This document shows, one piece after another, positions 11,715-49,774 of a DNA stretch of 53,889 bases. The stretch is from positions 1 through 53,889 of the forward strand of contig DASZJD010000037.1 of assembly GCA_035948415.1 (NCBI GenBank), in the 5' to 3' direction. The notes beneath the pieces are model-generated. The model worked only from the letters and a program-made list of their open reading frames with translations, was not told the origin of the DNA and did not search any database. How positions within the stretch are numbered: the stretch's first letter is position 1; every line of letters starts with the position of its first letter. Position numbers and translations under genes: made by a program. Source of the stretch: Acidimicrobiia bacterium (GTDB lineage Bacteria > Actinomycetota > Acidimicrobiia > IMCC26256 > PALSA-555).

Positions 11715-12875
11715 GTGGTGGCCTCGCCGCTCCGGGACCGCGCCGCCATCGTGGGCATCGGCCAGACGGCGTTCGGGAAGGGCCTGCCGGCGACCGAGCT
11801 GTCGCTCGCCTGCCAGGCGATCACGGCCGCCCTCGACGACTGCGCCATCCCCCCCGCCGAGGTGGACGGGCTCGCCTCCTACACGATGGAGCTGAACCGG
11901 GAGGTCGACGTGGCCCGCAACGTCGGCCTCGGCGACCTCTCCTTCTTCACCCAGGTCGGCTACGGCGGCGGCGCCGGCTGCGCCACCGTGCTGCAGGCGG
12001 CCATGGCCGTCGCCACCGGCCAGTGCCAGGTGGCGGTGGCGTGGCGGGCGCGGAAGCGGGCCGCGAAGACGAGCCGGCCGTGGGCCCAGGTGCCGCGCCG
12101 CCTCGACGACCACTGGCAGTGGAGCCGCCCCTTCGGGCTCCTGCGCCCGGTCGACGAGGTCGCGATGCTGACGCGCCGCTACATGCACGAGTACGGGGCG
12201 ACGCGCGATCACCTGGCCAACGTCGCCCTCGCGTTCCGGAAGCACGCCAACCGCAACCCGGCGGCGACGATGCACGACAAGCCGCTCTCTCGGCGCGAGT
12301 ACCTCGAGGGGCGCTGGATCTCCGAGCCGCTCTGCCTCTACGACAACTGCCTCGAGACCGACGGGGCCCTCGCGGTGGTCCTGGTCGCGGCCGAGCGGGC
12401 CGTCGACCTCCCGCGGCGACCGGTCTACGTGCACGCGGGCGCGCAGGGCCTGCCCCGCCAGCACCAGACGATGATCAACTACTTCAACGACGACCCGCTG
12501 TCGGGTCCGTCGTGGGCCGCCGCCGGCCCGCTGTGGCGGAACGCCGCCTTCGGCCCGGCGGACGTGAAGGTGGCGCAGATCTACGACGCCTTCAGCCCGC
12601 TCGTCCCGCTCTCCCTCGAGGGCTACGGCTTCTGCGCCCGCGGCGAGGGCGGCCCGTTCACCGACGGCGGGGCGCTCGAGTGGCCCGACGGCCGCCTGCC
12701 GACGAACACGTCCGGCGGCGGGATGTCGGAGGCGTACGTGCACGGCTTCAACCTCGTGCTCGAGGGGGTCCGCCAGCTTCGGGGCACCTCGACGAGCCAG
12801 GTCGCCGGCGCCGACACCTGCCTCGTCACCAGCGGCGAGGGCGTGCCGACCAGCGCCCTGCTCCTCCGGAACTAG
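11715..12875 (+). CDS. Ltp-type thiolase-fold protein (lipid-transfer protein / acyl-CoA aldolase family)
   Basis: 386 residues, starting immediately after the crotonase stop (GTG GTG; either may be used). The SCP2-thiolase-like fold is seen from RAAIVGIGQTAFG at the N-terminus to LPTNTSGGGMSEAYVHG near the C-terminus. The HDCF-type histidine of true thiolases is replaced by Tyr in QIYDAFSPLVPL, as in Ltp2-type retro-aldolases that cleave the last carbon unit of sterol side chains with a DUF35 partner. The DUF35 gene follows 8 nt downstream, which supports an Ltp2-like aldolase complex. Confidence 0.85.
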   Translation: MVASPLRDRAAIVGIGQTAFGKGLPATELSLACQAITAALDDCAIPPAEVDGLASYTMELNREVDVARNVGLGDLSFFTQVGYGGGAGCATVLQAAMAVATGQCQVAVAWRARKRAAKTSRPWAQVPRRLDDHWQWSRPFGLLRPVDEVAMLTRRYMHEYGATRDHLANVALAFRKHANRNPAATMHDKPLSRREYLEGRWISEPLCLYDNCLETDGALAVVLVAAERAVDLPRRPVYVHAGAQGLPRQHQTMINYFNDDPLSGPSWAAAGPLWRNAAFGPADVKVAQIYDAFSPLVPLSLEGYGFCARGEGGPFTDGGALEWPDGRLPTNTSGGGMSEAYVHGFNLVLEGVRQLRGTSTSQVAGADTCLVTSGEGVPTSALLLRN

Positions 12876-12883
12876 GAGCGGGC

Positions 12884-13351
12884 GTGGAGACCGGGTTCGT
12901 GCTGCCCGACCTCGAGAGCGAGGACAGCGCCGAGTTCTGGGCCGGCTGTGCCCGCGGCGAGCTGCTCGTGCAGGTGTGCGCGCGCTGCGGCCAGTGGCGC
13001 TTCCCGCCCCGGCCGATGTGCCCGCGCTGCCAGTCGCTCGAGTTCACGTGGACCCCGACGTCCGGTCGGGGCCGGGTGTGGTCGTTCGTCGTGCCCCACC
13101 CGCCGCTCCTCCCCGCCTACGCCGAGCTGGCCCCGTACAACGTGGTCGTCGTCGCCCTCGAGGAGAACCCGACCATCCGGATGGTGGGCAACCTGGTCGA
13201 GGACGCCGACGGCCCCATCAACGCGGTGGACCCGGCGACGATCGAGATCGGCGAGCCGGTGCGAGTGGTGTTCGCTCGGGTCGAGGACGTCAGCCTCCCC
13301 CGCTGGGTCCGGGTCGCGAACCGCGGTCGTGGGTCCGCTGGAGCGTCGTAG
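12884..13351 (+). CDS. DUF35 (Zn-ribbon/OB-fold) partner of the Ltp protein
   Basis: 155 residues from a GTG with an AGGAGCGG Shine-Dalgarno sequence. The rubredoxin-like zinc ribbon is C32-x2-C35...C46-x2-C49, followed by an OB fold with GRGRVWSFVVPHPP. DUF35 proteins bind the CoA-ester and stabilise Ltp aldolases or thiolases; a stand-alone form (no fused MaoC domain as in ChsH2) is usual beside Ltp genes. Last gene of the 8734-13351 operon. Confidence 0.87.
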   Translation: METGFVLPDLESEDSAEFWAGCARGELLVQVCARCGQWRFPPRPMCPRCQSLEFTWTPTSGRGRVWSFVVPHPPLLPAYAELAPYNVVVVALEENPTIRMVGNLVEDADGPINAVDPATIEIGEPVRVVFARVEDVSLPRWVRVANRGRGSAGAS

Positions 13352-15856: not shown

Positions 15857-18256
15857 TTGCCGGGGCACCGACCGGGCCGCCCCGGGCTCGCGGTCCAGGA
15901 GGAAGCACTGGCGACGGCCCTGCTCGACGGCCTGCGCGTCCTCGACCTGGCCGGCGAGCCGGCGGCGATGACCGGCCGCATCCTCGCCGACCTCGGCGCG
16001 CAGGTCGTGCTCGTCGAGCCGCCGGGCGGCCATCCGCTGCGGGTGCAGGCCGCCCGGTTCCTCGCCTGGGGCGCCGGGAAGGATCCCGTCACCGTCACCG
16101 GCCCCGACGACCCCGCCCTCGACCGACTGCTCGGCGGCGCCGACCTCGTCGTCGACACGCCGGGCTTCCCCGGCGCCCTCACGCTCGATCCGGCGCGGGC
16201 GCCGGACGCGGTGTGGGTCAGCGTCACCCCCTTCGGCGGGCGCGGGCCCCGCAGCGGCTGGTCCGCGAGCGACCTCGGGGTCATGGCGGCGAGCGCCAAC
16301 ATGTACTCCACCGGGGATCCCGACCGCGCGCCCGTCCGCTGCACCGAGCCGTCCGGGTACGCGCACACCGGCCCCGAGGCCGCCTTCGCGGCCCTGACCG
16401 CGCTGTGGACCGGGCGCCCACAGCGCGTCGACGTCTCCATGCAGGAGACCGTCTTCTCGGCCAACATGGGGACGCCGGCGCGCTTCCCCCAGACCGGGTT
16501 CCGCGGCGTCCGCCGCGGCGCGAGCATCGGCCGCACCCGCGAGATCTGGCCGACCCGCGACGGGTTCGTGTCGTTCGGGCTGCGAGGCGGCAAGGCCCGG
16601 GTGCCGAGCCTCCGGCTCATCACCCGCCTCGTCGCCGACGCCGGCCTCGACGCCTCCGCGCTCGAGGCGCAGGACTGGTCGACGTGGTCGCCGAACAGCG
16701 CCGACGACGCGGTGCTGCGCGCCGTCGAGGCCCCGATCGCCGAGTACTTCGCCACGCGCACGATGCAGGAGCTCTACGACACCGCGTGCGCGACGAACCT
16801 CATGCTGGCGCCGGCGAACTCGCCCCGGGAGATCCTGGCCAGCCTCCAGCTCGAGGCGCGCGGGTTCTTCACCACGCTGGGATCGGTCCCCCAGTTCCCC
16901 GCCACGTTCGTCCACGTGCGCGACCGGCATGGCAAGGTCGACCCCGCCGGGCCGCGCGCGCCCGCACCCGAGGAGGCCGGCGGCCCGACCCCGCCGACCT
17001 GGTCCGCCGGGCCGCGTCCCTCGCCGCGGCCCGGACCACCGACCGAGGGAGCGTGGCACGGGGTCCGGATCCTCGAGTTCGGATCCGGGGCTGCGGGGCC
17101 GATCGCGACGCGCTACTTCGTGGAGCACGGGGCCACCGTCTTGCGCGTCGAGTCGCGCAGCCGTCCCGACTTCCTCCGGGTCTACGCCCTCGGCCCCGAC
17201 AACCCGCACGGGCTCGAGGGGGCCCCCATGTACGACGCGCTGAACGTCGGGAAGCGCAACGTGACCCTGAACCTGAAGGACCCCGACGCGGTGGAGCTGG
17301 TGCGTCGGCTCGTCGTTGAGTGGGCCGACGCCGTCGCTGAGAACTTCGCGCCGCGCGCCATGAAGTCGTTCGGGCTCGACTACGACTCCCTGGCGGCCCG
17401 CAAGCCCGACCTCGTGATGGTGAGCGCGTGCCTGAACGGCCAGACCGGCCCCCACCGCGACTATCCCGGGTTCGGCGGCCAGGGGGCCGCGCTCTCGGGC
17501 TTCAACTGGCTGACCGGCTGGCCCGACCGGGCGCCCGTCGGCCCCCACGGCACGATCACCGACTCGCTCGCACCCCGGTTCGTCGCCACCGCGCTCGCCG
17601 CCGGCCTCGACTACCGGCGTCGGACCGGGCGCGGCGTCTACCTCGACCTGGCCCAGGTCGAGACCGGCGTGTACTCGCTCGCCCCGTGGCTCATCGCCTA
17701 CCAGCGCGACGGGGTCGTCGGCACCCGAGCCGGCAACCGGAGCCCGCGCGCCGTGCCCCACGGCGCGTTCCGCTGCGCGCCCGAGGCCGGCGTCGACGAC
17801 CGCTGGGTCGCGCTCGCGACCTGGACCGACGAGGCCTGGGGCGCCCTGGCCGCGGTGGTCGGACTCGACGACCCGGAGCTGGCGACGGTCGCCGCCCGCC
17901 AGGCCCGTATCGACGAGGTCGAAGCCGCGGTCGAGGCCTGGACCTCCGGGCGCACCCGCGCCGCGGTGTGCGAGGCCCTGCAGCCCCTCGGCATCGAGGC
18001 GGTGCCCGTGGAGGACTTCGGCGACGTCCACGACGACCCGCAGGTCGCGGCGCGCGACCACTTCGTGCCGCTCGTGCACCCGGTGATGGGACCCGGCTGG
18101 TACGAGCGCACCGGCTTCCGCCTCTCCGACAGCCCGGCCGGCTACAAGCGGGCGGGCCCCACCCTCGGCCAGGACAACGACTGGGTCCTCGGGGAGCTGC
18201 TCGGCCTCTCGTCCGCCGAGCAGGACCGGCTGCGAGAGCAGGGCGCCGTCGAGTGA
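15857..18256 (+). CDS. Double-domain CaiB/BaiF (class III) CoA-transferase
   Basis: 799 residues from TTG at 15857, or 782 if CTG at 15908 is used; the latter has AGGAGG 5 nt upstream and begins just before the conserved LLDGLRVLDLA, so I favour it biologically. Two tandem CaiB/BaiF domains (about 20-355 and 400-795), each with its own catalytic Asp region: VDVSMQET in the first half, LDLAQVET in the second. Class III enzymes move CoA between acyl-CoA and a free acid. Fused pairs occur in actinobacterial catabolic clusters. The promoter carries the shared operator, suggesting substrate-induced expression. Confidence 0.85.
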   Translation: MPGHRPGRPGLAVQEEALATALLDGLRVLDLAGEPAAMTGRILADLGAQVVLVEPPGGHPLRVQAARFLAWGAGKDPVTVTGPDDPALDRLLGGADLVVDTPGFPGALTLDPARAPDAVWVSVTPFGGRGPRSGWSASDLGVMAASANMYSTGDPDRAPVRCTEPSGYAHTGPEAAFAALTALWTGRPQRVDVSMQETVFSANMGTPARFPQTGFRGVRRGASIGRTREIWPTRDGFVSFGLRGGKARVPSLRLITRLVADAGLDASALEAQDWSTWSPNSADDAVLRAVEAPIAEYFATRTMQELYDTACATNLMLAPANSPREILASLQLEARGFFTTLGSVPQFPATFVHVRDRHGKVDPAGPRAPAPEEAGGPTPPTWSAGPRPSPRPGPPTEGAWHGVRILEFGSGAAGPIATRYFVEHGATVLRVESRSRPDFLRVYALGPDNPHGLEGAPMYDALNVGKRNVTLNLKDPDAVELVRRLVVEWADAVAENFAPRAMKSFGLDYDSLAARKPDLVMVSACLNGQTGPHRDYPGFGGQGAALSGFNWLTGWPDRAPVGPHGTITDSLAPRFVATALAAGLDYRRRTGRGVYLDLAQVETGVYSLAPWLIAYQRDGVVGTRAGNRSPRAVPHGAFRCAPEAGVDDRWVALATWTDEAWGALAAVVGLDDPELATVAARQARIDEVEAAVEAWTSGRTRAAVCEALQPLGIEAVPVEDFGDVHDDPQVAARDHFVPLVHPVMGPGWYERTGFRLSDSPAGYKRAGPTLGQDNDWVLGELLGLSSAEQDRLREQGAVE

Positions 18257-36745: not shown

Positions 36746-38926
36746 TCAGGCGTCGCGCGGCAGCCCGAGGACGCGCTCGCCGATGATGTTGCGCTGGATC
36801 TCGCTGGTCCCGCCGGCGATGGTCAGGTTGCGGTTGAAGAGGAACCCGCGGCTCCACACCGCCCCCTCCCCCTCCTCGACCGCTCCCTCGGGTCCGAGGA
36901 GGGTCAGCCCCACCTCCTGCACGTGCTGGTCGTGCAGCACGCCGAGCAGCTTGCGGACCGCGGCCTCCGACCCGCTCGGGTCCGCGCCGCTCAAGGCGGC
37001 GAGCGTCAGCCGGAACCCGAGGCAGGCCAGCGCGTAGCCCGTCGCCACCAGGCCGCCCACCTCGTCGAGGACCAGCGGGTCCGAACCGTCGGCGCGCGCC
37101 AGGCGCTGCAGGATCTGCTCGAGCCCGGGCCCGAGGGCCAGGCCGCTGCCCATGAACACCCGCTCGTTGGCGAGGGTGGTCCGCGCCGCCCGCCACCCGT
37201 CCCCGGGCGACCCGATCAGGCAGTCGTCGGGGATGAACGCGTCGTCGAAGAACACCTCGTTGAACATCGAGTCGCCGGTCAGCTCGCGCAGGGGGCGGAC
37301 CTCGAGCCCGTCGGTGCCGCGCATGTCGACCAGGAAGCACGAGATCCCCTCGTGCTTCGGGCGCGTGGCGTCCGTCCGGGCGAGGAGGATCCCCCAGTCG
37401 GCCAGGTGCGCCATCGAGGTCCAGACCTTCTGGCCCGTCACCCGCCAGCCGCCGTCGGCCCTCGTGGCCCGCGTGCTGAGGCTGGCGAGGTCCGAGCCCG
37501 CCCCCGGCTCGCTGAACAGCTGGCACCACATGATCTGGCCCCGAAGCGTCGGCGGGATCCACCGCTCCTGCTGCTCGCGGGTGCCGTAGACGATGACCGG
37601 GGGGAGGGCCCAGCTGCCCACCATGATGCCGGGGCGCGGCACGCGGGCGCGACGGAACTCCTCCTGGATCACCAGCTGCTCCGCGGCCTTGGCGTCTCGG
37701 CCCCAGGGCTTCGGCCACGTCGGCATGATGTACCCGGCGTCGGCGACCGCCCGACGCTGCTCGTCGGCGGCCAGGTCCTGGACGGAGGCGAGGAAGGCGC
37801 GCAGCTCGGCGCGCCAACGGTCCGCGTCCTCACCGAGGTCGACGGCGAGGACGCGCCGAGCTCCGTCCCGCGCCGCCGCGGCGGCCCGCATCCGCCACGC
37901 GTCCTCGGGGCCGAGCAGGCTGCGGAGCGACAGGGCTCGGCGGAGGTAGACGTGGGCGTCGTGCTCCCACGTGAACCCGACGCCGCCGAGGACCTGGATG
38001 CAGTCCTTGGCGTTCGCGAAGGCGGCGTCCAGCGCCAGCGCCAGGGCCGACGACGCGGTCAGGCTCGCGGCGGCGTCGGCGGTCGCACGCGCCGCGTCCC
38101 AGGTCGCGGCGCGGGCGAGCTCCAAGCGCCCGAGCATGTCCGCGCACCGGTGCTTGACCCCTTGGAACTGGCCGATGGGCCGGCCGAACTGGACCCGGGT
38201 CGCGGCGTGTTCCGCCGCCGTCGTCACGCACCACTGCGCGACGCCGACGGCCTCGGCCGCGACGAGCACCGCGGCGACGTCGCGGGCGGTGTCGGCAGCG
38301 AGGCCCGGCAGCCGACGGTCAGCGGGAACGACGGCGTCGACCGCCACCTCGGCGACGCGACGGGTGCGGTCGACGCTGGGCAGCTCCCGACGCTGGTCGG
38401 CGGGGACGTCGAGCGCGCACCACTCGAGACGATCAGCGACGCGGACCGGGGCCAGCAGCACGTCAGCGAGATGCCCGGCGAGGACGGGACGGACGGTGCC
38501 CTCCACGTGCAGACCGTCCGCGCGCTCCGCACCGGTCAGCGCTGGTGCGGCGTCGAGCGCGACCGCGCCGACTCGCTCCCCCGTCGCCAGCGCCGGCAGG
38601 AGGCTCTTGGCGAGGGCCTCGTCGCCGCCGCGCTGCACGAGCGCGGCGGCGAGCACGGTCGGGAGCGTCGGCCCGGGGGCGACCACCCGACCGAGCTCCT
38701 CGAGCACGACCACGAGCTCGGGGAGCCCGTAGCCGGAGCCGCCGTGCTCCTCGGGCAGGTGGAGCCCGAGCCAGCCCTGGGCGGACAGCTCCGACCAGAA
38801 CGGCGGGAGGGACTGCCGCTCGGCGTCCAGGAGCGCCCGCGGCACCGCCGGCGGGCAGTGACGCTCGCACCAGCCGGCGACGGCGGCGTGGAGCGCGAGG
38901 TGGTCCTCGGAGACCCCGATCGGCAC
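36746..38926 (-). CDS. Fused double acyl-CoA dehydrogenase (FadE34/FadE6-like)
   Basis: 726 residues from GTG; two complete acyl-CoA dehydrogenase units in one chain (about 1-340 and 360-726), like mycobacterial FadE34/ChsE3, which acts on cholesterol-side-chain CoA esters. N-half: TRVQFGRPIGQFQGVKHRCADM and GGVGFTWEHDAHVYLRR. C-half: FSEPGAGSDLAS for FAD, VTGQKVWTS, NERVFMG and GGTSEIQRNIIGERVLGLPRD. Last gene of the thiolase-P450 unit, but TAGGAT 6 nt before its GTG, overlapping the preceding stop codon, offers a separate leaderless promoter. Confidence 0.88.
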   Translation of the reverse strand: MPIGVSEDHLALHAAVAGWCERHCPPAVPRALLDAERQSLPPFWSELSAQGWLGLHLPEEHGGSGYGLPELVVVLEELGRVVAPGPTLPTVLAAALVQRGGDEALAKSLLPALATGERVGAVALDAAPALTGAERADGLHVEGTVRPVLAGHLADVLLAPVRVADRLEWCALDVPADQRRELPSVDRTRRVAEVAVDAVVPADRRLPGLAADTARDVAAVLVAAEAVGVAQWCVTTAAEHAATRVQFGRPIGQFQGVKHRCADMLGRLELARAATWDAARATADAAASLTASSALALALDAAFANAKDCIQVLGGVGFTWEHDAHVYLRRALSLRSLLGPEDAWRMRAAAAARDGARRVLAVDLGEDADRWRAELRAFLASVQDLAADEQRRAVADAGYIMPTWPKPWGRDAKAAEQLVIQEEFRRARVPRPGIMVGSWALPPVIVYGTREQQERWIPPTLRGQIMWCQLFSEPGAGSDLASLSTRATRADGGWRVTGQKVWTSMAHLADWGILLARTDATRPKHEGISCFLVDMRGTDGLEVRPLRELTGDSMFNEVFFDDAFIPDDCLIGSPGDGWRAARTTLANERVFMGSGLALGPGLEQILQRLARADGSDPLVLDEVGGLVATGYALACLGFRLTLAALSGADPSGSEAAVRKLLGVLHDQHVQEVGLTLLGPEGAVEEGEGAVWSRGFLFNRNLTIAGGTSEIQRNIIGERVLGLPRDA

Positions 38927-38932
38927 CCGACG

Positions 38933-38938
38933 ATCCTA
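38933..38938 (-). promoter_or_regulatory. -10 element TAGGAT overlapping the hydrolase stop, 6 nt before the fused dehydrogenase
   Basis: The minus-strand TAG stop of the alpha/beta hydrolase is also the first half of TAGGAT, followed by 6 nt and the GTG at 38926. No Shine-Dalgarno sequence. This suggests an internal leaderless promoter. Confidence 0.4.
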
Positions 38939-39742
38939 CGAACCGGCCGCCGGTGCCCGGGTGCGGGCGCGGGCCGCGTCACGCGCGACGCCGTTCACGA
39001 TCGGCGCCAGCAGTGCGGGCGCGCTGATCATCACGTCGTGGCCGGCGTCGACGTCGACGACCTCGAGCCGGCCGCCCGGCGACTCGCGCAGCCAGCCGAT
39101 CTGGGCGTCCTGCTGCGCGGGGGCGAGCGCCTGGTCGCGCCGCAGCCGGACGTAGGTCTTTGGCAGCGTCGGCGGGACGCCACGTCGGGTCACCCGGTCC
39201 GCGAGCGCCGCGGGCGCCTCGACGCCGACGTGCGCCAGCACGAACGCGGTCTGGGCCTCGTCCATGTCGTTGCAGAACATCTGCCGGACCGTGGCCTCGT
39301 CGAGACCGGCCAGGGCCACCGACCCGGCGCGGGCCTCGGCCACGGCGTGCCGCACCGAGTCCTGGAGCTCGTCGGAGAGGGCCTCGATGCTCGAGCCGCC
39401 CTCCGGTGGCACCAGGCACGAGACGAAGACCAGGTGCGCGACCCGGGACGGCGCCCGCCCGGCCACCTCGGCGATCGTGAGGCCGCCCATCGAGTGGCCG
39501 ACGAGCACGAACCGCTCGAAGCCGGCCGCGTCGGCGTCAGCGAGCACCGCGGCCGCGAAGTCGTCGAGCCCGAGGCCCGTGATCTCGGGCGGCAGCGCCG
39601 CGAGCGGCGCGCCCCGGATCTCCTTCGGGGGCAGGTCGACCGCCAGCACCGGGGCTCGCAGCCAGGGCAGGAGTGGCTCCCAGCACCAGGCCCCGTGCCC
39701 GCCGCCGTGCACGAGCACGATCGGCTGCCCGTCGTCGCTCAC
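38936..39742 (-). CDS. Alpha/beta hydrolase
   Basis: 268 residues from GTG 39742, overlapping the ferredoxin stop (GTGA). Oxyanion loop HGGGHGAWCW (12-21), nucleophile S84 in VGHSMGGL, and the C-terminal His in VDAGHDVMIS complete an esterase/hydrolase triad. It resembles plant-esterase-like (methylesterase/HNL) hydrolases. In this operon it could open a lactone or cleave an ester produced by the P450. Frame-open sequence further upstream overlaps the P450 and ferredoxin and is not used. Confidence 0.84.
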   Translation of the reverse strand: MSDDGQPIVLVHGGGHGAWCWEPLLPWLRAPVLAVDLPPKEIRGAPLAALPPEITGLGLDDFAAAVLADADAAGFERFVLVGHSMGGLTIAEVAGRAPSRVAHLVFVSCLVPPEGGSSIEALSDELQDSVRHAVAEARAGSVALAGLDEATVRQMFCNDMDEAQTAFVLAHVGVEAPAALADRVTRRGVPPTLPKTYVRLRRDQALAPAQQDAQIGWLRESPGGRLEVVDVDAGHDVMISAPALLAPIVNGVARDAARARTRAPAAGS

Positions 39743-39945
39743 ACGATCCGTTCGTCGTCGCGCCAGATGGCGATGGCTTGCGTCGGACAGCCCTGGCCGG
39801 CGAGCACGACCTTGTCCTCGGGATCGCCGGCGGGGTCCTTCACGAAGGCGATCCCGTCCTCGCCGAGGTCGAACGTGCCGGGCGCCCAGAAGGAGCAGTT
39901 GCCGGAGCCCATGCACTTCGAGCCGTCGATCTCGATTCGGAGCAC
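39739..39945 (-). CDS. 3Fe-4S ferredoxin
   Basis: 68 residues from GTG, 4 nt after the P450 stop. Cysteines C11 (KCMGSGNC), C17 and C53 (GCPTQAI) are the three ligands of a [3Fe-4S] cluster; the usual second Cys position is Gly/Ser. Such ferredoxins are the standard electron donors of actinobacterial P450s. Direct partner of the cytochrome encoded immediately upstream; the reductase could be the FAD protein at 7381-8598. Confidence 0.9.
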   Translation of the reverse strand: MLRIEIDGSKCMGSGNCSFWAPGTFDLGEDGIAFVKDPAGDPEDKVVLAGQGCPTQAIAIWRDDERIV

Positions 39946-39949
39946 GGGC

Positions 39950-41176
39950 TCACACGGGGTCGAAGCGGACGGGCAGCGTCGTCGGCGACCGGAAGGTCTC
40001 ACCGTGGATGTGCGGGTCGTCGCGCTCCGCCACTTCCGGGTCGAGGCGAAGGTTGGCGCAGCGGTCCAGCAGCCGATTGACGGCGGCGCGCATCTCCATG
40101 CGGGCCAGGTGCATGCCGAGGCACATGTGGGGCCCGACACCGAAGGAGATGACGGGCTTGGCCTCCCGGAACAGGTCGAAGTCCTCGGCGCGCTCCCAGC
40201 GGGTCTCGTCCCGGTTGGCGGACCCGATGTTGGGGATCACCTGGGCGCCGGCAGGGATGGCGGTCCCCGCCACCTCGGTGTCGCGGACCGCCACGCGCGA
40301 GGTGATGAGCAGCGGTGGCTCCCAGCGGACGGCCTCCTCGACGGCCGGGGTCAGGAGCGCCCGGTCGGCGTCGAGGGCGTGGAGCTGGTCGGCGTTGGTG
40401 AGGAGGCCGAAGAGCAGGTTGCCGGTGGCGCGGTAGGTCGTCTCGGCGCCGGCCGGGAGCAACAGCCGGAGGAAGGAGAAGATCTCCTCGTCGCCGAGGC
40501 GCTCGCCGTCGAGCTCCGCGGTGGCGAGGTCACTGACCAGGTCGTCACGGGGGCGCGCCCGTCGGTCCTCGAGCACCTGCTCCAGGTACGAGCGCAGCTC
40601 GGCCGACGCGCGGATGGCCTCCAAGGGCCGGCCGCCCACGCTGATGATCGCCGACGCCCAGCAGTGGAACTGCTCGTAGTCGGCGCGCGGCAGGCCCAGG
40701 ATGACGGCGATCACCTGCACCGGGTAGCGGTAGGTGAGCTCGCGAACCAGCTCCGCCCGCCCCTGAGGCGCGAAGCCGTCGATCATCTCGTCGACGACCG
40801 GCACCACGAGGTCGTCCTCGAGGTGCGCCAGGGTCTTCTGGCGGAACGCCTGCGCCACGAGCGACCGCAGCCGGCGGTGGTCGGGCTCGTCCATCCCAAC
40901 GAGCGGGTACGGCCCCATGACCGCGGCCATGTTGGCGCGGATGCTCTCGGACGAGAACGTGTCGTTGTCGCGCAGCACCGCGGCGCAGTCGTCGTAGCGG
41001 TAGACCTCGAAGCCGTCCACGACGGTGCCCGTCGATCCCCAGGCCGGTCGGGTCGCCACCGGGAGCTCCCGCCGTCGCCGAGCCAGCTCGGGGTGCGGGT
41101 CGCGGACGTCCTGCGGGTCGGCGGCGAACTGCTCCATCGGGTCCCAGCCGACGACCGGGCGGGCGGTCTGGGTCAC
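39950..41176 (-). CDS. Cytochrome P450
   Basis: 408 residues from GTG; soluble bacterial class-I type. I-helix AGAETT (242-247), ExxR E281-R284 (EAVRW), and haem loop FGVGPHMCLGMHLARME with ligand C352. DEPDHRRLRSLVAQAF is the C-helix. It hydroxylates a hydrophobic substrate using electrons from the adjacent ferredoxin. Motif style resembles the CYP125/CYP142/CYP144-like actinobacterial group, but I cannot assign a family. 9 bp after the FGGY kinase. Confidence 0.9.
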   Translation of the reverse strand: MTQTARPVVGWDPMEQFAADPQDVRDPHPELARRRRELPVATRPAWGSTGTVVDGFEVYRYDDCAAVLRDNDTFSSESIRANMAAVMGPYPLVGMDEPDHRRLRSLVAQAFRQKTLAHLEDDLVVPVVDEMIDGFAPQGRAELVRELTYRYPVQVIAVILGLPRADYEQFHCWASAIISVGGRPLEAIRASAELRSYLEQVLEDRRARPRDDLVSDLATAELDGERLGDEEIFSFLRLLLPAGAETTYRATGNLLFGLLTNADQLHALDADRALLTPAVEEAVRWEPPLLITSRVAVRDTEVAGTAIPAGAQVIPNIGSANRDETRWERAEDFDLFREAKPVISFGVGPHMCLGMHLARMEMRAAVNRLLDRCANLRLDPEVAERDDPHIHGETFRSPTTLPVRFDPV

Positions 41177-41185
41177 GGCCCGAGC

Positions 41186-42517
41186 CTATGCCGCCAGCGC
41201 GCGGAACCGCTCGTAGCGTTCGGCGACCGGCTCGAGCCAGGCCGGGTCCGGCTCGACGCGTCGCCCGACGCGTGCCCACCGTCGTCCGTCGGTCATCGCG
41301 GTCGGCTCCTCGAGCCCGGCGGCGATGCGGGCCAGCCACGCCGAGCCCAGCGCGCCTCCCTCCGGCACGAGGACGCAGTCGATCGGCAGCGCGGTCGCGT
41401 CGGCGACCGCCTGCACCCAGTCGTCGACGCGCGTTCCCCCACCCGACGCGACGAGCCGCCGGGGCTCGATGCCGTGGTGCGCGCGGGCCAGGTCGAGGAT
41501 GCGTCGGGTGACGAAGCCCGACGCCTCGAAGGCGGCGCGGCGGATCGACGCCGCGTCGTGGGTCAGGTCCAGGTCGGTAAGCGTGGCTCGACGGTCGGGA
41601 TCGTGCAGCGGCGCCCGCTCACCGCGGGGGTAGGGCACCCACACCGGGACCCGTCGGGCGTCGACCGGCCCGCTCGGCGCGCCGAGGAGCCCGGCGGCCC
41701 AGTTGCAGAACAGGCCCCCCGCGTTGCTCGGGCCGCCGACCAGCATCTTCCCCGAGGCGGTGTGCGGCAGCACGTAGAGGCCGGGCGCGGCGTGCTGCGC
41801 CGGGCTCACGGCCCACACGATCAGCGTGGTACCGAGGAGCAGCAGCACGTCGCCGTGCTCGTCGGCGCCGGCGACCAGCTGCTCGGCGAGCGCGTCGATG
41901 CACCCGGACGCCAGCGGCGGGCCGTCGCCGTCGATGCGCCCGGCCTCGAAGCCGGTGGGCACGAGGCGCGGGAACTGCTCGACCGTGGTGCCGTGGTCGG
42001 CGGCGACGGCCGGATCCCACCCGGTCCAGTCGAAGAGCGGGTGCGCGGTGGCCGCGGTCGACGTGTCCAGCACCGCCTCGCCGGTCAAGGCGTGGTTGGC
42101 GACCGCCTGCGCGGGCCAGTAGCCCGCCGCGTGCGGTGCCTCGCGCTGCAGCCAGCGGAGGAACGCCAGCAGCTCGCCGGCCTCGATCGGGTTGCCGCGG
42201 ACGGCGGTGCGGCCGCGCTCGTCGCCGTAGAGGAGCCCGGGCTGGATCGGCACGCCGTCGGCGTCGACGGCGGTCAGCGACGGCACCATCGCCGCCACGC
42301 TGACCCCGCGCACGTCGAGGTCGCCGAGCGCCCGCAGCGCCTGGCGCGGGCCGCGCCGCCACGCGTCGGCGGCGTCGTGCTCGAGGCGGCCCGGCGCCGG
42401 CACCCGCACCTCGTGCGGCACCCGGGCGCTCGCCACCACGACGCCCTCGTCGTCAGCGGCGACGGCCTTCACCGACGAGGTGCCGATGTCGATCCCGACC
42501 GTGACCGGCGGGCTCAT
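41186..42517 (-). CDS. FGGY-family carbohydrate kinase (xylulokinase-like)
   Basis: 443 residues from ATG, overlapping the HisN-like stop (ATGA). VGIDIGTSSVKAVAADD at the N-terminus binds phosphate; LLYGDERGRTA carries the catalytic Asp region; LVASGGGTRVDDWVQAVAD is the adenosine site of the second domain. Somewhat short for the family (about 480-510). A sugar, polyol or sugar-like group is the substrate. Its place between a phosphatase and a P450 is unusual. Confidence 0.84.
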   Translation of the reverse strand: MSPPVTVGIDIGTSSVKAVAADDEGVVVASARVPHEVRVPAPGRLEHDAADAWRRGPRQALRALGDLDVRGVSVAAMVPSLTAVDADGVPIQPGLLYGDERGRTAVRGNPIEAGELLAFLRWLQREAPHAAGYWPAQAVANHALTGEAVLDTSTAATAHPLFDWTGWDPAVAADHGTTVEQFPRLVPTGFEAGRIDGDGPPLASGCIDALAEQLVAGADEHGDVLLLLGTTLIVWAVSPAQHAAPGLYVLPHTASGKMLVGGPSNAGGLFCNWAAGLLGAPSGPVDARRVPVWVPYPRGERAPLHDPDRRATLTDLDLTHDAASIRRAAFEASGFVTRRILDLARAHHGIEPRRLVASGGGTRVDDWVQAVADATALPIDCVLVPEGGALGSAWLARIAAGLEEPTAMTDGRRWARVGRRVEPDPAWLEPVAERYERFRALAA

Positions 42518-43299
42518 CGGGGCGCCGCGAACGCGGCCAGCACGGTGTCGTGGAGCCAGCCGTTCGTCGTCACGCACGGGGCGTCGTCGGCCCAGCCCGC
42601 GCCGGTCAGGTCGCTGACCCGCCCGCCCGCCTCCTCGACGATGGGGCGGAGCGCGGCGACGTCCCAGAGGGCGAGGACCGGCTCGACCATGACGTCGACT
42701 GCGCCCTCGGCCACGAGCACGTGGCCCCAGAAGTCGGCGAACCCCGCCGCCTGCCAGCACCGTTCGGCGAGGCCGCGGAACGCGGCGCCGAGGCCGCAGA
42801 CGTCGAAGTACCGCTCGCTCGGCCCGCAGAGGTGCGCGTCCTCGAGCCGCCGGACCGCCGACACGCGGATGCGGTCGCCGTCGGCGAAGGCGCCGCCGCC
42901 CCGCCGGGCCCACCAGCGACGCCCCAAGGCCGGCGCCGAGACCACGCCGAGCGCGACGTCGCCCTCGACCTCGAGCGCCAGCAGCGTGGCCCAGGCCGGG
43001 ACGCCCCGGACGAAGCTCTTCGTCCCGTCGATCGGGTCGACGATCCACCGGCGGCGGCCGTCACCGGTGGCGCCGAACTCTTCGCCGACGACCCCGTCGC
43101 CGGGACGAGCCTCGTCGAGCCGCTGCCGCACCATGGTCTCGACCGCGTGGTCGGCCTCGGTGACCGGTGTCCGGTCCGGCTTGGTCTCGACACGCAGGTC
43201 GTGGGCGCGGAACCGCCGCGTCGTCAGCTCGTCCGCCGCGTCCGCGAGCGACAACGCGAGCGCCAGGTCGTCGTCGAGGTCGCCGCGGATGCCGGGCAA
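42514..43299 (-). CDS. hisN: Inositol monophosphatase-superfamily phosphatase, HisN (histidinol-phosphatase) type
   Basis: 261 residues from TTG 43299 (the only reasonable start near DLDDDLALALSLADAADELT, the usual HisN N-terminus). Metal-binding motifs GEEFGATG and WIVDPIDGTKSFVRGVP, and the C-terminal EPVLALWDVAALRPIVEEAGG. WATLLALE after the DPIDGT motif is characteristic of actinobacterial histidinol-phosphatases. However, no histidine gene is nearby; it is translationally coupled to an FGGY kinase, so a different sugar- or polyol-phosphate is possible. Confidence 0.78.
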   Translation of the reverse strand: MPGIRGDLDDDLALALSLADAADELTTRRFRAHDLRVETKPDRTPVTEADHAVETMVRQRLDEARPGDGVVGEEFGATGDGRRRWIVDPIDGTKSFVRGVPAWATLLALEVEGDVALGVVSAPALGRRWWARRGGGAFADGDRIRVSAVRRLEDAHLCGPSERYFDVCGLGAAFRGLAERCWQAAGFADFWGHVLVAEGAVDVMVEPVLALWDVAALRPIVEEAGGRVSDLTGAGWADDAPCVTTNGWLHDTVLAAFAAPR

Positions 43300-43343
43300 T
43301 GTAGCCCGACGCGCGTCGTCCGGGTCCCGGCGTCCGCGTCCGG

Positions 43344-44525
43344 TTACCGCGCGGGGACCTCGAGGACGGTCGCCGAGCCCATGCCGCCGCCGGCGCACAT
43401 GCTCGCCACGCCGTACCCGCCGCCGCGACGCCGGAGCTCGTACACGAGGGTGGCGATCATCCGAGCCCCCGTGCACGCGACCGGGTGGCCGAGGCTGCAC
43501 CCGCTGCCGTTCACGTTCACGATGTCGTGCGGGAAGCCGAGGACCCGGCTCGACGCGACCGCCATCGACGCGAACGCCTCGTTGATCTCGACCAGCGCCA
43601 TGTCGTCGAGCGCGAGGCCGGCGCGGGCGACCGCCTTCGGGACCGCGACCGTCGGCCCGAGGCCGGTGTCCGCCGGCGGCACGCCGGCCGAGGCCCACGA
43701 ATGGACGACGGCGAGCGCCTCGAGGTCGTGGTCTCGGGCGTAGGCGTCGTCGCAGAGCACGAGCGCGCACGCGCCGTCGTTCAGGCCCGACGCGTTGCCA
43801 GCGGTGATGGAGAACCCGGGGATCTCGGGGTGCAGCGGCGGCAGCTGGGCCAGCCGCTCGGGGGTGCTGTCCCGCCGCGGGTGCTCGTCGGTGTCGAAGA
43901 TCTTCGGGTCGCCGCGGCCCACCGGGACCTCCACCGCGAAGACCTCGTCGGCGAAGCGGCCGTCGTCGATCGCGGCCACGGCCCGCCGGTGCGAGTGGTA
44001 GGCCCAGTCGTCCATCTCCTCCCGCGAGACGCCGCAGCGCTGGGCGGTGTTCCAGCCGACGGTGATCGACATGTCGGTGGCGGGCGCGTCGGGCGTCTCG
44101 GGGTGCGACGGCGACAGCCAGGGCTGCACGCCGGCGTACGAGCCCGGGAGCTTGCGGAACACCTGCGGCGACTGGCTGATGCTCTCGGTGCCGCCGGCGA
44201 CGACGACCCGGTCCATGCCGGCGCGGATGTTCGCCGCCGCGGTCTGGACCGCGGCCATGCCGGACGCACAGTGCCGGTTGTGGGCCATGCCGGGGACGTC
44301 GGTGAGCCCGAGCTCCACGGCGACGTACCGGGCGATGTCGCCCCCGCCCTGGAGCACCTCGCCGAGCACGATGTCGTCGAGGTCCTCGGACGGGATCCCG
44401 CTGCGCTTCACCGCCTCCTCGACCGCCAGGCGGCCCAGCTCGAACGCGCTCATCCCGGCCAGCGACCCCCGGCGCGCGGTGCCGATCGGCGTGCGGGCGG
44501 CGGCGACGATCACGGCGTCTCCCAC
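43344..44525 (-). CDS. Thiolase (acetyl-CoA acetyltransferase family)
   Basis: 393 residues from GTG with GGGAGGAG upstream. Catalytic C86 in NRHCASGMAAV, NEAFAS, His in GSGCSLGHPVACTGAR and the second Cys in SMCAGGGMGSA are all intact, so it should be an active degradative thiolase. GSGCSLGHP instead of GGAIALGHP places it in the FadA5/FadA6-like divergent group. First gene of the minus-strand unit reaching 36746; its promoter region holds the third shared operator. Confidence 0.89.
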   Translation of the reverse strand: MGDAVIVAAARTPIGTARRGSLAGMSAFELGRLAVEEAVKRSGIPSEDLDDIVLGEVLQGGGDIARYVAVELGLTDVPGMAHNRHCASGMAAVQTAAANIRAGMDRVVVAGGTESISQSPQVFRKLPGSYAGVQPWLSPSHPETPDAPATDMSITVGWNTAQRCGVSREEMDDWAYHSHRRAVAAIDDGRFADEVFAVEVPVGRGDPKIFDTDEHPRRDSTPERLAQLPPLHPEIPGFSITAGNASGLNDGACALVLCDDAYARDHDLEALAVVHSWASAGVPPADTGLGPTVAVPKAVARAGLALDDMALVEINEAFASMAVASSRVLGFPHDIVNVNGSGCSLGHPVACTGARMIATLVYELRRRGGGYGVASMCAGGGMGSATVLEVPAR

Positions 44526-44639: not shown

Positions 44640-46169
44640 GTGCCTCCCTCCGGCGAACTGCAGGTCGACCAGCTGCGCTTCATGGCCCGCGAGCATCCCG
44701 ACGCCGTCGCGTACCGCAACCTCGACGCCGGCACCGCGATCACCTTCGCCGACTGGGACCGCGACTCGAACGCGCTGGCGCGCGGGCTCATCGAGCTCGG
44801 GCTGCGCCCCGACGACCGCTGCTCGGTCTACCTGCCCGCCGACGAGGTCCTCCGCTGGATCGTCGCCTACGCCGCCGTCCACAAGGCCGGCGCGGTGGCG
44901 GTGCCGACGAACACCCGGCTCTCCGAGCCGGAGCTGGCCGCCATCCTCGGGCACGCCGAGGTGTCGACGATCCTCACGAGCGAGTCGCTCGTCACGCTGC
45001 CGCTGGCGGTGCGCGGCCGCGTCCCCTCGCTGCGCACCATCGTGTCGGCGGGCGGACCGGTGGCCGGCGCCGAGCCCTGGGACGCCGTGCCCGCCGGCGA
45101 CGGCAGCGACGTCCAGGTGCGGCGCGAGCCGTCGGACCTCGCCGACGTCATGTACACCTCGGGGACCACCGGGCTCCCGAAGGGCATCGCGGTTCGGCAC
45201 AGCAACCTCGCCATGATCCCGAACGTCGAGCCCGTCTGGACCGGCGACGGGTGGATCCACGGGGCGCCGATGTTCACGTTCGCGGGCATCGCCTTCATCT
45301 ACAACCCGATGAAGATGGGCCTGGTCGGGCTCTACCAGCCGCACTTCGACGCCGGTCGCTGGCTCGAGTACGTCGAGCGGGAGCGCCCGACCTTCTGCAT
45401 GCTCGTGCCGGCGTTCGCCGAGCTGCTCGTCGCCCACCCCGACTTCCATCGCCGCGACCTCTCGAGCCTCCAGCAGGTCGCGGTCGGCAGCGCGCCGCTC
45501 GCACCGCAGACCCAGCTGGCCCTCATCGAGCGGCTCCCGGACGCGACGGTCGGGAACTCGTACGGCATGACCGAGGCCGGTCCGGCGTACATCGTCATGC
45601 CGAAGGAGGAGATCAAGAACCGGATCGGGTCGGTCGGCAAGCCGTTCGGCCCGATGGAGATCAAGGTCGTCGACGACGACGGCCGCGAGCGAGCGCCCGG
45701 CGAGGTCGGCGAGCTGCTCCTCCGCATGGCCGGCAAGCAGCGCGAGTACTACAAGGACGACGAGGCCACCGCCGCCACGTGGACCGAGGACGGCTGGCTG
45801 CGGAGCGGCGACCTCGCCTACCTCGACGACGACGGCTTCCTCTATATCTGCGGTCGCAAGAAGGACATGATCATCCGCGGTGGCAACAACATCTACGCCA
45901 CCGACGTCGAGGCGGTGCTGCTCGAGCACCCCGAGGTGCGCGAGGCGGCGGTGACGGGGGTCCCGCACCCGGTGCTCGGCGAGGACGTGGCCGCCTGGGT
46001 CGTCGCTCGTCCCGGCCGTGGCCTCGACACCGACCAGCTGTCGGCGTTCGTCGCCGAGCGCCTCGCCGACTACAAGCGGCCCCGACAGCTGTACGTCGTC
46101 GACGAGCTGCCGCGCAACGCGACCGGCAAGGTCATGAAGCACCGGCTCCAGACCCCCTCGGCGTCCTGA
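44640..46169 (+). CDS. Long/medium-chain acyl-CoA synthetase (FadD-like)
   Basis: 509 residues from GTG. Complete adenylate-forming motif set: YTSGTTGLPKGI, NSYGMTEAGP, RSGDLAYLDDDGFLYI, CGRKKDMIIRGGNNIY and the C-terminal NATGKVMKHRL with the catalytic Lys. Activates a carboxylic acid with ATP and CoA. Divergent from the thiolase operon across operator site 3, and head of a plus-strand series of six genes. Confidence 0.89.
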   Translation: MPPSGELQVDQLRFMAREHPDAVAYRNLDAGTAITFADWDRDSNALARGLIELGLRPDDRCSVYLPADEVLRWIVAYAAVHKAGAVAVPTNTRLSEPELAAILGHAEVSTILTSESLVTLPLAVRGRVPSLRTIVSAGGPVAGAEPWDAVPAGDGSDVQVRREPSDLADVMYTSGTTGLPKGIAVRHSNLAMIPNVEPVWTGDGWIHGAPMFTFAGIAFIYNPMKMGLVGLYQPHFDAGRWLEYVERERPTFCMLVPAFAELLVAHPDFHRRDLSSLQQVAVGSAPLAPQTQLALIERLPDATVGNSYGMTEAGPAYIVMPKEEIKNRIGSVGKPFGPMEIKVVDDDGRERAPGEVGELLLRMAGKQREYYKDDEATAATWTEDGWLRSGDLAYLDDDGFLYICGRKKDMIIRGGNNIYATDVEAVLLEHPEVREAAVTGVPHPVLGEDVAAWVVARPGRGLDTDQLSAFVAERLADYKRPRQLYVVDELPRNATGKVMKHRLQTPSAS

Positions 46170-46214: not shown

Positions 46215-47225
46215 ATGGTCCGGGCCGCCATCGACCGGTTCCCGCCGGCGCCGGTCGAGCGTCTGTGCTTCGGCACCCCTGACGCCTCGGCCATCGCCGC
46301 GCGCCTCGACGAGTTCCTCCGCCGGGAGCTCGGCGCCGGGATCGATGAGCCGTGCTTCTACGTCACGAGCGTCGGCTGCGTCCTCGGCGCGGTGCTCGAC
46401 GACCGCCGCCGGGTCGTCGTGAAGGCCCACCAGCCGGGCAGCGACCCCGACCAGCTCGCCGCGGTCCAGCGGGTCCAGCGCCATCTCGGCGCGCACGGGT
46501 TCCCGGCCCCAGCGCCGATCGCCGGCCCGGCTCCGCTCGTCGCCGGGCTCGCCACCGTCGAGACGATGCTCGAGGGCGGCGCGATCCCCGACGCCCGGCA
46601 ACCCTCGATCCGCCGGGCGATGGCCACCTGGCTCCGTCGGCTCCTCACCCTGACCGCCGGCTTCGCCCGCGACCCCGCGCTGGCCCGGCCGGTGATCCCG
46701 CGCGGGGATCCCGCCCGCGTCTTCCCGCCGCCCCACAGCCCCGTCTTCGACTTCGAGGCCACGCGCGACGGCGCCGAGTGGATCGAGGCGCTCGGGGCCG
46801 AGGCGGCGGCGGTCGTCGACGACGAGGGCGGCACCGCCGACGTCGTGTCGCACGTCGACTGGCGCGTCGAGCACCTCCGCTCCGTCGGCGACCGGCTCGT
46901 CGCCGTCTTCGACTGGGACAGCCTCCGGACCGACCGCGAGGCCGCCGCGGTCGGCCAGGTCGCGCACGGGTTCACGATCGACTGGGGGGCCGCCGAGGCC
47001 CACGTCCCGACCCTCGACGAGGCCGCGGCGTTCGTCCGCGACTACGAGCGGGCCCGCGGCGCGCCGTTCACGGACCGGGAGTGGCGGGTCGCGAAGGCGG
47101 CGTGGGTGTACGCGACCGCGTACGGAGCCCGGTGCGAGCACGCGCTCCTCGGGGCCGCGGTGGCGCCGGTCCCAGAGGCGTTCCGAGCGCGGCTGGCCGC
47201 GCACGGGGCGGCGTGGCTCCGGTAA
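46215..47225 (+). CDS. Aminoglycoside-phosphotransferase-like (APH/choline kinase fold) protein
   Basis: 336 residues. RVVVKAHQ supplies the ATP-binding Lys, VVSHVDWRVEHLR is the catalytic loop (HxDxxxxN in which the final Asn position is His) and VFDWDSL is the metal-binding DWD. It may phosphorylate a small hydroxylated molecule; actinobacterial APH-like proteins often sit with acyl-CoA genes. The Asn change may weaken activity. 45 bp downstream of FadD. Confidence 0.7.
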   Translation: MVRAAIDRFPPAPVERLCFGTPDASAIAARLDEFLRRELGAGIDEPCFYVTSVGCVLGAVLDDRRRVVVKAHQPGSDPDQLAAVQRVQRHLGAHGFPAPAPIAGPAPLVAGLATVETMLEGGAIPDARQPSIRRAMATWLRRLLTLTAGFARDPALARPVIPRGDPARVFPPPHSPVFDFEATRDGAEWIEALGAEAAAVVDDEGGTADVVSHVDWRVEHLRSVGDRLVAVFDWDSLRTDREAAAVGQVAHGFTIDWGAAEAHVPTLDEAAAFVRDYERARGAPFTDREWRVAKAAWVYATAYGARCEHALLGAAVAPVPEAFRARLAAHGAAWLR

Positions 47226-47255: not shown

Positions 47256-47711
47256 TTGGCGCTCACCGAGCTGAAGGGCCAGACCACGGGCCGCCAGACC
47301 GTGGTCATCGAGCGGGGCCCGGTGCGCGTGTTCGCCGAGGCGCTCGGCGACGACGACGCCGCGTACCGGGCCGACGGCGCCCCCGTGCCGCCGACGTTCC
47401 CGTTCGTGATGTCGTACTGGGGCTCGCTCGGCGCGGGGGGCGCGGCCGGCCTCCCGATCGACCGGCTCCGCGGCCCCGGGCGGGCCATCCTGCACGGCGA
47501 GCAGGCCTTCGAGTACTACCGCTGGCCGCACGTCGGCGACCTGCTCGAGGGGTCCACCGTCGTCACCGACGTGTACGAGAAGGAACGATCGAACGGCGGG
47601 AAGCTCGAGTTCTACGAGACCGAGACCGAGTGGAAGGACGCCCGCACCGACGAGCCGGTGCTGAAGGCCATCTTCACGCTCGTGATCAACGTCCGGCCGC
47701 CGAAGGACTAG
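47256..47711 (+). CDS. HTD2/MaoC N-terminal-type hotdog protein
   Basis: 151 residues from TTG with AAGGAG 7 nt upstream. Same family as 19088-19591: VVIERGPVRVFAEALGDDDAAY, VPPTFPFVMSYWG, ILHGEQAFEYYRWPHVGD. Probable enoyl-CoA hydratase component or its non-catalytic partner. It could pair with the hotdog at 19088 as the two halves of an HTD2-like dehydratase, but they are 28 kb apart. Confidence 0.77.
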   Translation: MALTELKGQTTGRQTVVIERGPVRVFAEALGDDDAAYRADGAPVPPTFPFVMSYWGSLGAGGAAGLPIDRLRGPGRAILHGEQAFEYYRWPHVGDLLEGSTVVTDVYEKERSNGGKLEFYETETEWKDARTDEPVLKAIFTLVINVRPPKD

Positions 47712-48235: not shown

Positions 48236-49774
48236 GTGGACCCGGTCCACGCCTTGACCCTCGGCGACGTACTGCGAGAGCACGCCCGCAGCCGGCCCGG
48301 CCAGCTCGGCGCCGTGGACGGGGAGCGGCGGCTCACCTTCCCCGCCCTCGACGCCCGCGTGAACCAGCTCGCCGCCGCGCTCGCCGCCGACGGCGTCGAG
48401 GCCGGTACGCGCGTCGCGTGGCTGGGCCAGAACTCGTTCCGGGTCCTCGAAGGGCTGCTGGCGGCGGCGAAGCTCGGGGCGCTGTTCTGCCCGGTGAACT
48501 GGCGGTCGAGCCCGGACGAGCTGGCCTTCGTCGTCGACGACCTCGAGCCCCGGGTCGTGATCTGGCAGGACGAGGAAGTCGGGGCCGCCGTCACCGAGGC
48601 CCGCCGCCGCGCGCGGGCCCCGGCCCGCTGGGTGCGCCACGACCAGCACCCGGGAGGGTACGAGGACTGGATCGCCGCGCGCCCCACCGCCGATCCCGAC
48701 CGCCGCGTCGACCCGTCGTCGGCCGCGCTGGTGGTGTACACGGCCGCGTTCGACGGTCAGCCGAACGGGGCCATGCTGAGCCACGTCGCCTGCATCGCCC
48801 AGGGCCTGGTGTACGGGCACTACACCGGCACGACCGCCGACGACGTGTACCTGAACAGCGGCCCGCTCTTTCACCTGGGGACGCTCATGCACACGCTCGC
48901 CACCTTCGTCGCCGGCGGCACCAACGTGTTCGTGCGGCGCGTCGACGCCGAGCTCCTGTGCCAGACGATCGAGCGGGAGCGGTGCACCGGCGCGTTCATC
49001 GTCGGCCCCACCCTCGACCAGGTGCTCTCGGCCCGAGAGGCCGGCGGCCACGACCTGTCCAGCCTCCGCACGCCGCCGGGCCGGCCGGCGTGGGACGCGG
49101 TCACGAGCCCCGACGACAGCCCGTGGGCCGCCCGGCCCGGCGGGTACGGGCAGAGCGAGGTCGTCGGGATGCTGACCTACAGCTGCCTCGGCCTCGACGC
49201 CGCCGGCACCCACGGTCGTCCGTCCCCGCTGGCCCAGGTCCGGGTCGTCGACGAGGACGACCGCGACCTGCCCCCGGGGGAGGTCGGGGAGATCGTGGCC
49301 CGCGGCCCGACGGTGATGTGCGGCTACTGGAACCGCCCCGCCGAGAACGCCAGCCGGCGCCGGGGCGGGTGGCACCACACCCGCGACCTCGGCCGCCGCG
49401 AGGCCGACGGGTCGATCACGTTCATCGGGGCCAAGACCCGCATGATCAAGTCGGCGGCGGAGAACATCTACCCCGCCGAGGTCGAGCGCGGCCTGGCCAC
49501 CCATCCTGCGGTCGCCGAGTGCGCGGTGATCGGCGTGCCCGACCCCGCCTGGGTGCAGAGCGTGAAGGCGGTGGTCGTGCTGCGCGCGGGGGCGGCCGCG
49601 ACCGCCGACGAGCTGATCGACCACTGCCGGGCCCAGATCGCCGCCTACAAGAAGCCCCGGTCGGTCGAGTTCGTCGACGCGCTGCCGCGCCGCGGGCTCG
49701 CGGTCGACTACGACGCGCTCGACGCCCGGTTCGGCGGCGGCAACTACCCCGGCGGCCGGACGCGCAGCACGTGA
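48236..49774 (+). CDS. Adenylate-forming (FadD-like) protein with degenerate catalytic motifs
   Basis: 512 residues from GTG 48236. Overall ANL-superfamily fold (LTLGDVLREHARSRPGQ, GRPSPLAQVRVVDEDD, IKSAAENIYPAEVE). The P-loop reads YTAAFDGQPNGAML (168-181): the Ser-Gly-Thr-Thr run is lost and the Lys is Asn177. The A5 motif is GYGQSE. The C-terminal catalytic Lys (GKV in FadD proteins) is missing: LPRRGLAVDYDALDARFGGG. ATP-dependent acyl-adenylation is therefore doubtful. The stop overlaps the DUF2889 start (GTGA), implying coupled expression. Confidence 0.8.
   Translation: MDPVHALTLGDVLREHARSRPGQLGAVDGERRLTFPALDARVNQLAAALAADGVEAGTRVAWLGQNSFRVLEGLLAAAKLGALFCPVNWRSSPDELAFVVDDLEPRVVIWQDEEVGAAVTEARRRARAPARWVRHDQHPGGYEDWIAARPTADPDRRVDPSSAALVVYTAAFDGQPNGAMLSHVACIAQGLVYGHYTGTTADDVYLNSGPLFHLGTLMHTLATFVAGGTNVFVRRVDAELLCQTIERERCTGAFIVGPTLDQVLSAREAGGHDLSSLRTPPGRPAWDAVTSPDDSPWAARPGGYGQSEVVGMLTYSCLGLDAAGTHGRPSPLAQVRVVDEDDRDLPPGEVGEIVARGPTVMCGYWNRPAENASRRRGGWHHTRDLGRREADGSITFIGAKTRMIKSAAENIYPAEVERGLATHPAVAECAVIGVPDPAWVQSVKAVVVLRAGAAATADELIDHCRAQIAAYKKPRSVEFVDALPRRGLAVDYDALDARFGGGNYPGGRTRST

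Follow-up and report, generated by a model that had tools for sequence, protein, structure and literature searches.

Gene content and conservation of the block

The window, by which we mean the whole stretch of 53,889 nucleotides analysed here, is contig DASZJD010000037.1 (C37) of an Acidimicrobiia genome, GCA_035948415.1 (G000; 3.4 Mb in 133 contigs). On its minus strand it carries seven consecutive genes that encode, in the direction of transcription, a thiolase, a phosphatase of the inositol monophosphatase type (IMPase-type), an FGGY carbohydrate kinase, a cytochrome P450, a ferredoxin, an alpha/beta hydrolase and a fused acyl-CoA dehydrogenase resembling FadE34 (Table 1). We think it rather likely that the seven genes make up a composite operon, with a set of lipid degradation genes, a housekeeping hisN gene and a relocated kinase of a three-enzyme route sharing one site, and not a single pathway that processes both the sugar and the aglycone of one compound.

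The genes lie where a reading of the sequence without database searches (the sequence-only reading) had placed them, with junction gaps of at most 44 bp, and Pfam domain matches agree with the families that it had assigned to all seven. In transcription order the junctions measure 44, -4, 9, 4, -4 and 9 bp. The start codon of the kinase gene lies on the stop codon of the phosphatase gene in a 4-bp ATGA overlap, and a 4-bp GTGA overlap joins the ferredoxin and hydrolase genes; gaps of 9 bp follow the kinase and hydrolase genes and one of 4 bp follows the P450 gene. The first value holds if the phosphatase begins at the TTG codon at 43299, which is the least certain start of the block; a start overlapping the thiolase stop by 4 bp was rejected because the reading frame has GTA at 43347. 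Landmark residues are intact in the P450, hydrolase and ferredoxin, and in the kinase, whose D10 and D208 are invariant across 33 sequences.

We searched for the kinase at an E value of 1e-40 or better in 296 genomes sampled from the class and 58 in the order, and found it in 66 and 46, respectively; the copy in G042 had an identity of only 35% and was dropped as an ortholog, leaving 65 kinase-bearing genomes. The neighbourhoods that we examined extended in most cases for about 9 kb on either side of the kinase gene. Of the order's kinase-bearing genomes, 45 are informative, and in 40 of these the phosphatase gene lies directly upstream of the kinase gene (FGGY identity 55-85%); the exact 4-bp overlap recurs in at least 13 order genomes. 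The adjacency is missing from G064, G020, G215, G170 and G119, while G100 is uninformative because its contig ends there. Since the adjacency is kept so widely, the arrangement of the block is not due to chance, and the concern that gene order might not be conserved in relatives can be set aside. The pair is mostly trailed by ferredoxin and FadE34-like genes, which are more constant than the P450, hydrolase and thiolase genes. The seven genes are thus one conserved, co-directional block that combines the acyl-CoA part of a lipid pathway with a coupled pair of genes for an IMPase-type enzyme and an FGGY kinase. Outside the order, the phosphatase gene was never beside the kinase gene in the class neighbourhoods examined.

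Individual neighbourhoods depart from this plan. One (L167) has hisN, ferredoxin and FadE34 genes together with no kinase in between, and two others (L107, L108) keep hisN, kinase and ferredoxin without a FadE34 ortholog. In L079, from genome G032, the hisN-kinase pair lies amid homologs of window genes found at 2.5-6.7, 13.9, 31.2 and 53.1 kb, without P450, ferredoxin or FadE34 genes, a layout that suggests an older neighbourhood common to both. In family f4 (L090-L093, L096, L098, L099, L101-L103, L106-L108) a gene for a 1600-residue NAD-glutamate dehydrogenase is divergent from hisN. The close relatives in named records are metagenome-assembled genomes, mostly labelled Acidimicrobiia or Actinomycetota.

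The phosphatase and histidine biosynthesis

The phosphatase is probably a housekeeping HisN. Its best match in the PDB is the histidinol-phosphatase 5yht, and it has the motifs that separate histidinol-phosphate phosphatases (HolPases) from other IMPases (PMC5516325): motif 1, K-x-D-x-[TS]-P-V-[TS] with D at 46, is present as KPDRTPVTEAD, and motif 5, whose Asp and aromatic residues are HolPase-specific, as GFADFWGH. The motif 5 Asp and aromatics are kept in the kinase-adjacent copies examined, with one copy unmatched by the pattern. All 58 order genomes have a match to the HisN model TIGR02067, with 25 passing its cut-off; the match is strong (at least 213 bits) in 53, including nine of the 12 that lack the kinase. 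Weak matches only (136-152 bits) were found in three f17 genomes and in G100 and G170, the last two of which may be incomplete, so that HisN is nearly but not strictly universal in the order.

The second-best IMPase of G000 scores 158.9 bits against TIGR02067, far below the window protein, and no PHP-type (hisJ-type) HolPase exceeded the cut-off in that genome; HAD-type HolPases were not searched for. The prospect that the HisN-like gene is the only histidinol-phosphatase and is expressed independently, which had been named as a finding that would undo a shared pathway, is thereby largely realised as far as IMPase- and PHP-type enzymes are concerned. Membership of a lipid or sugar pathway does not sit well with the HisN-specific motifs, the near order-wide distribution that takes in kinase-free genomes, or the lack of a PHP-type substitute. 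The enzyme resembles actinobacterial HisN (C. glutamicum HisN; 5yht) in its motifs, its best structural-sequence match and its near-universality in the order; it differs in that its gene heads a lipid and kinase block and in a score that narrowly misses the family cut-off (see Discussion).

The kinase and its partners

Both FGGY domains of the kinase score above their gathering thresholds (PF00370, 58.8 against 28.8; PF02782, 82.1 against 27), and the closest folds to its AlphaFold2 model (pLDDT 94.4) are xylulose, gluconate and glycerol kinases. Xylulokinase XylB (TIGR01312) was rejected as an identification, the kinase scoring 131.9 bits and its f78 ortholog 121.9, far under the cut-off of 380.25. 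Among 396 genomes sampled across the phylum, the kinase occurs elsewhere in four genomes of a single other genus (f78/g182), with 56-60% identity to the window protein; plasmid records yielded distant FGGY kinases only, at no more than 32% identity. The f78 kinases and all class copies form one clade (support 98/97), within which the HisN-linked kinases are a nested clade of 43 rows that includes L070 (100/98).

In f78 the kinase is flanked by a 2-hydroxyacid dehydrogenase (2HADH) and a FucA-like aldolase, in surroundings that contain secY, adk (adenylate kinase), map (methionyl aminopeptidase), a sigma factor and TIGR00027 methyltransferases. We take this genus to be, very probably, Mycobacterium and the locus to be the Rv0727c-Rv0735 stretch of M. 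tuberculosis; the kinase is then presumably Rv0729 (xylB), the dehydrogenase serA2 (Rv0728c) and the aldolase fucA (Rv0727c), all by synteny. The catalytic and substrate-side residues are common to the f78 and class kinases, which argues for the same type of substrate in both settings.

The genome of the window also holds the complete trio, but its genes are not neighbours: the dehydrogenase and aldolase genes, which overlap by 4 bp, are on a 3-kb contig (C40) and the kinase gene is on C37. The C40 dehydrogenase is 69% identical to that of f78 and the aldolase 54%. The trio genes are neighbours in f78 and in several class families. The xylB-serA2-fucA locus, identified by synteny, is thus matched in G000 by a kinase ortholog and both types of partner, and differs in that here the kinase is apart from its partners and follows hisN in a lipid block.

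The dehydrogenase and the aldolase are each present in 43 of the 46 kinase-bearing genomes of the order and in one of the 12 kinase-free ones (Fisher 1.8e-8). Among 42 class genomes outside the order, a 2HADH of at least 59% identity occurs in 18 of the 20 with the kinase and in none of the 22 without it, so that, with G042 left out, the totals for the dehydrogenase are 61 of 65 kinase-bearing and one of 34 kinase-free genomes tested; the kinase-free set was different for FadE34, where it numbered 230. The kinase tracks this unlinked pair at least as well as it tracks the lipid genes. Literature searches gave no functional account of Rv0729, Rv0727c/Rv0728c or xylB/serA2/fucA, and none of FGGY kinases with P450s and acyl-CoA dehydrogenases, in searches that also covered Acidimicrobiia.

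The lipid genes and the rest of the window

Orthologs of the FadE34-like protein (at least 50% identity) are present in 54 of the 296 class genomes. The best PDB match of the P450 is a reconstructed CYP125 ancestor, with PikC and CYP124 at similar scores and macrolide and vitamin D hydroxylases scoring near it. The block is like the mycobacterial sterol side-chain sets (ChsH2, Ltp2, FadE34, CYP125) in its fused dehydrogenase, in the CYP125-type relatives among the best P450 matches and, in relatives, in the ChsH2-domain and Ltp2-like genes downstream of it. It differs from them with respect to HsaD (NF045632, cut-off 400 bits), for which a search of G000 at E 1e-50 found nothing and none of the 58 order genomes exceeded the cut-off; the closest scores came from two f17 genomes, both kinase-free and both below the cut-off. 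This is a test of a single marker, with no positive among the 14 control genomes. The missing HsaD match argues against canonical steroid-ring catabolism and does not bear on terpenoid or side-chain substrates, for which the ChsH2-domain and Ltp2-like genes of relatives leave room; on this one marker we rejected the idea that the lipid genes serve to break down steroid rings by the canonical 9,10-seco route.

Five genes are divergent from the block, on the plus strand from 44640: an acyl-CoA ligase, a weak APH-family match, a MaoC/FAS1-DH hydratase, a glyoxalase-family gene and a second ligase. The ligases and the hydratase are kept in relatives; the APH-family gene had no counterpart in the relatives' neighbourhoods searched. 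Elsewhere in the window, on the plus strand, are an Ltp2-like thiolase gene (11715-13351), followed by one for a ChsH2/DUF35-type-looking protein, the latter judged by eye only, and a gene (15857-18256) for a CoA-transferase family III protein of about 800 residues with two matched stretches. The aldolase/adducin-family gene at the contig end is distinct from the FucA-like aldolase of the trio and is 78% identical to a gene of L079.

Table 1. Coordinates and supporting matches of the block genes and other genes of the window
Feature	Position	Strand	Matches and remarks
Thiolase (acetyl-CoA C-acyltransferase), first gene of block	43344..44525	-	PF00108, PF02803; TIGR01930 385.6 bits, cut-off 240.55
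HisN, IMPase-type histidinol-phosphate phosphatase, probably housekeeping	42514..43299	-	PF00459; TIGR02067; 5yht; HolPase motifs; TTG start uncertain
FGGY carbohydrate kinase	41186..42517	-	PF00370, PF02782; tree; catalytic positions; AlphaFold2 model
Cytochrome P450	39950..41176	-	PF00067; heme motif FGVGPHMCLG
3Fe-4S-type ferredoxin, probable P450 redox partner	39739..39945	-	PF13370; CX5C and one further Cys
Alpha/beta hydrolase	38936..39742	-	PF12697, PF00561; GHSMG nucleophile elbow
Fused double acyl-CoA dehydrogenase, FadE34-like, 726 aa	36746..38926	-	Two stretches each of PF02771 and PF00441
Acyl-CoA ligase, divergent	44640..46169	+	PF00501, PF13193; kept in relatives
APH-family phosphotransferase, between divergent ligase and hydratase	46215-47225	+	PF01636, weak, 30.3 bits
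MaoC/FAS1-DH-type hydratase	47256..47711	+	PF13452; kept in relatives
Second acyl-CoA ligase	48236..49774	+	PF00501; kept in relatives
Second class II aldolase/adducin-family gene, reaches contig end	53105-53887	-	PF00596

Discussion

In the composite operon that we favour, three components with separate roles would be transcribed together. Gene content, order, conservation and co-occurrence are matters of observation, and the activities and substrates proposed here are predicted from families. The thiolase, P450, ferredoxin, alpha/beta hydrolase and FadE34-like dehydrogenase, together with the divergent ligases and hydratase, would make up a lipid acyl-CoA degradation set running from oxygenation by the P450 and ferredoxin through CoA activation, dehydrogenation and hydration to thiolysis. 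The HisN protein would be an ordinary histidinol-phosphate phosphatase whose gene happens to sit at this site. The FGGY kinase would belong to a conserved route with a FucA-like class II aldolase and a SerA2-like 2-hydroxyacid dehydrogenase, and would have been relocated, its partners being on C40 here and beside the kinase in other class families and f78. In that route the kinase may phosphorylate a small ketose or polyol-derived ketose, the aldolase would split the product into dihydroxyacetone phosphate (DHAP) and an aldehyde, and the dehydrogenase would perform a 2-hydroxyacid/2-oxoacid step. The single sugar-plus-aglycone pathway of the sequence-only reading is not supported, given a HisN that looks like housekeeping and a kinase tied to partners encoded elsewhere; it is possible all the same that the sugar and lipid parts serve one compound.

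Several observations weigh against the composite operon. A FadE34 ortholog (at least 50% identity) is present in 52 of the 65 kinase-bearing genomes and in only two of the 230 other genomes of the class. The kinase gene adjoins FadE34 outside the order as well (L110, L111, L120, L122-L124), and in L110 the kinase, FadE34, 2HADH and aldolase genes are all neighbours. One genome, G032, retains hisN and the kinase yet has neither the lipid genes nor either of the trio partners. The TIGR02067 score of the window HisN is 274 bits for the protein and 273.6 for the genome, just under the cut-off of 275.15. Finally, the co-occurrence counts ignore shared ancestry and are to be read as strong associations, not as probabilities.

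The first two of these observations may point to a lipid with a polyol or sugar-like part, or to an oxidation that frees a small hydroxylated fragment, in which case FadE34 and the thiolase would degrade the lipid, the trio would consume the fragment and HisN would be a bystander. This would fit the distribution of FadE34 within the order (40 of 46 kinase-bearing and one of 12 kinase-free genomes, p = 5.8e-7) and the 2HADH-aldolase pairs of L195 and L196, which adjoin an enoyl-CoA hydratase-like gene. Against it stand 13 kinase-bearing genomes without a FadE34 ortholog, ten of which keep the dehydrogenase (G015, G024, G088, G119 and six class genomes), and the f78 trio, which has no FadE34 or P450 gene within the stretch examined. 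Genome G135 likewise has FadE34 and ferredoxin genes without the kinase, which was lost from between hisN and the ferredoxin gene; it keeps the 2HADH, and no aldolase was seen in this genome, which is 83% complete. A functional tie between the kinase and FadE34 is possible, and we regard the lipid-and-fragment scheme as the main alternative, though clearly the less likely one. Somewhat doubtful, too, is the related proposal that the kinase, the unlinked dehydrogenase and aldolase, and the P450, FadE34 and thiolase constitute one undescribed Acidimicrobiia pathway, in which the freed fragment would be phosphorylated and cleaved and of which mycobacteria would have a reduced version.

Far less can be said for phospho-activation, which the sequence-only reading had raised together with dephosphorylation of a hydroxylated intermediate. 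In the version considered here, after the pattern of ACAD10/11 and LvaA/LvaC, the FGGY kinase would phosphorylate a hydroxylated acyl-CoA, from which the acyl-CoA dehydrogenase would eliminate the phosphate. For 4-hydroxy acids, such a pairing of kinase and acyl-CoA dehydrogenase is established (PMC12440821, PMC11342911), the kinase and dehydrogenase genes do share an operon, and the alpha/beta hydrolase could open a lactone. In the block, as in ACAD10/11 and the lva operon of Pseudomonas putida, a small-molecule kinase accompanies an acyl-CoA dehydrogenase, but the kinases of those systems are APH or protein-kinase-like, whereas this one is FGGY, has sugar and glycerol kinases as its fold neighbours and has active-site residues identical to those of copies beside a sugar-phosphate aldolase. 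We rejected phospho-elimination by this pair because the kinase is of the wrong family; the nearby APH-like gene is the better candidate for that chemistry, and a role for the FGGY protein as an acyl-CoA kinase is unlikely. It is equally improbable that the IMPase-type enzyme is not HisN but works with the kinase as a phosphatase of its pathway, since its tight coupling to the kinase gene has to be set against retained HolPase motifs, its standing as the sole strong HisN match in its own genome, its retention in kinase-free genomes and the absence of this gene from beside the kinase outside the order; HisN as a pathway enzyme is accordingly unlikely.

With these findings the appealing idea of a single pathway gives way to a composite operon, an account that can be tested. 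A probable housekeeping gene that has become established at the start of a lipid block is a caution for guilt-by-association arguments in operons, and, if the substrate of the trio were found, mycobacterial genes that at present have sugar-family names only could be annotated.

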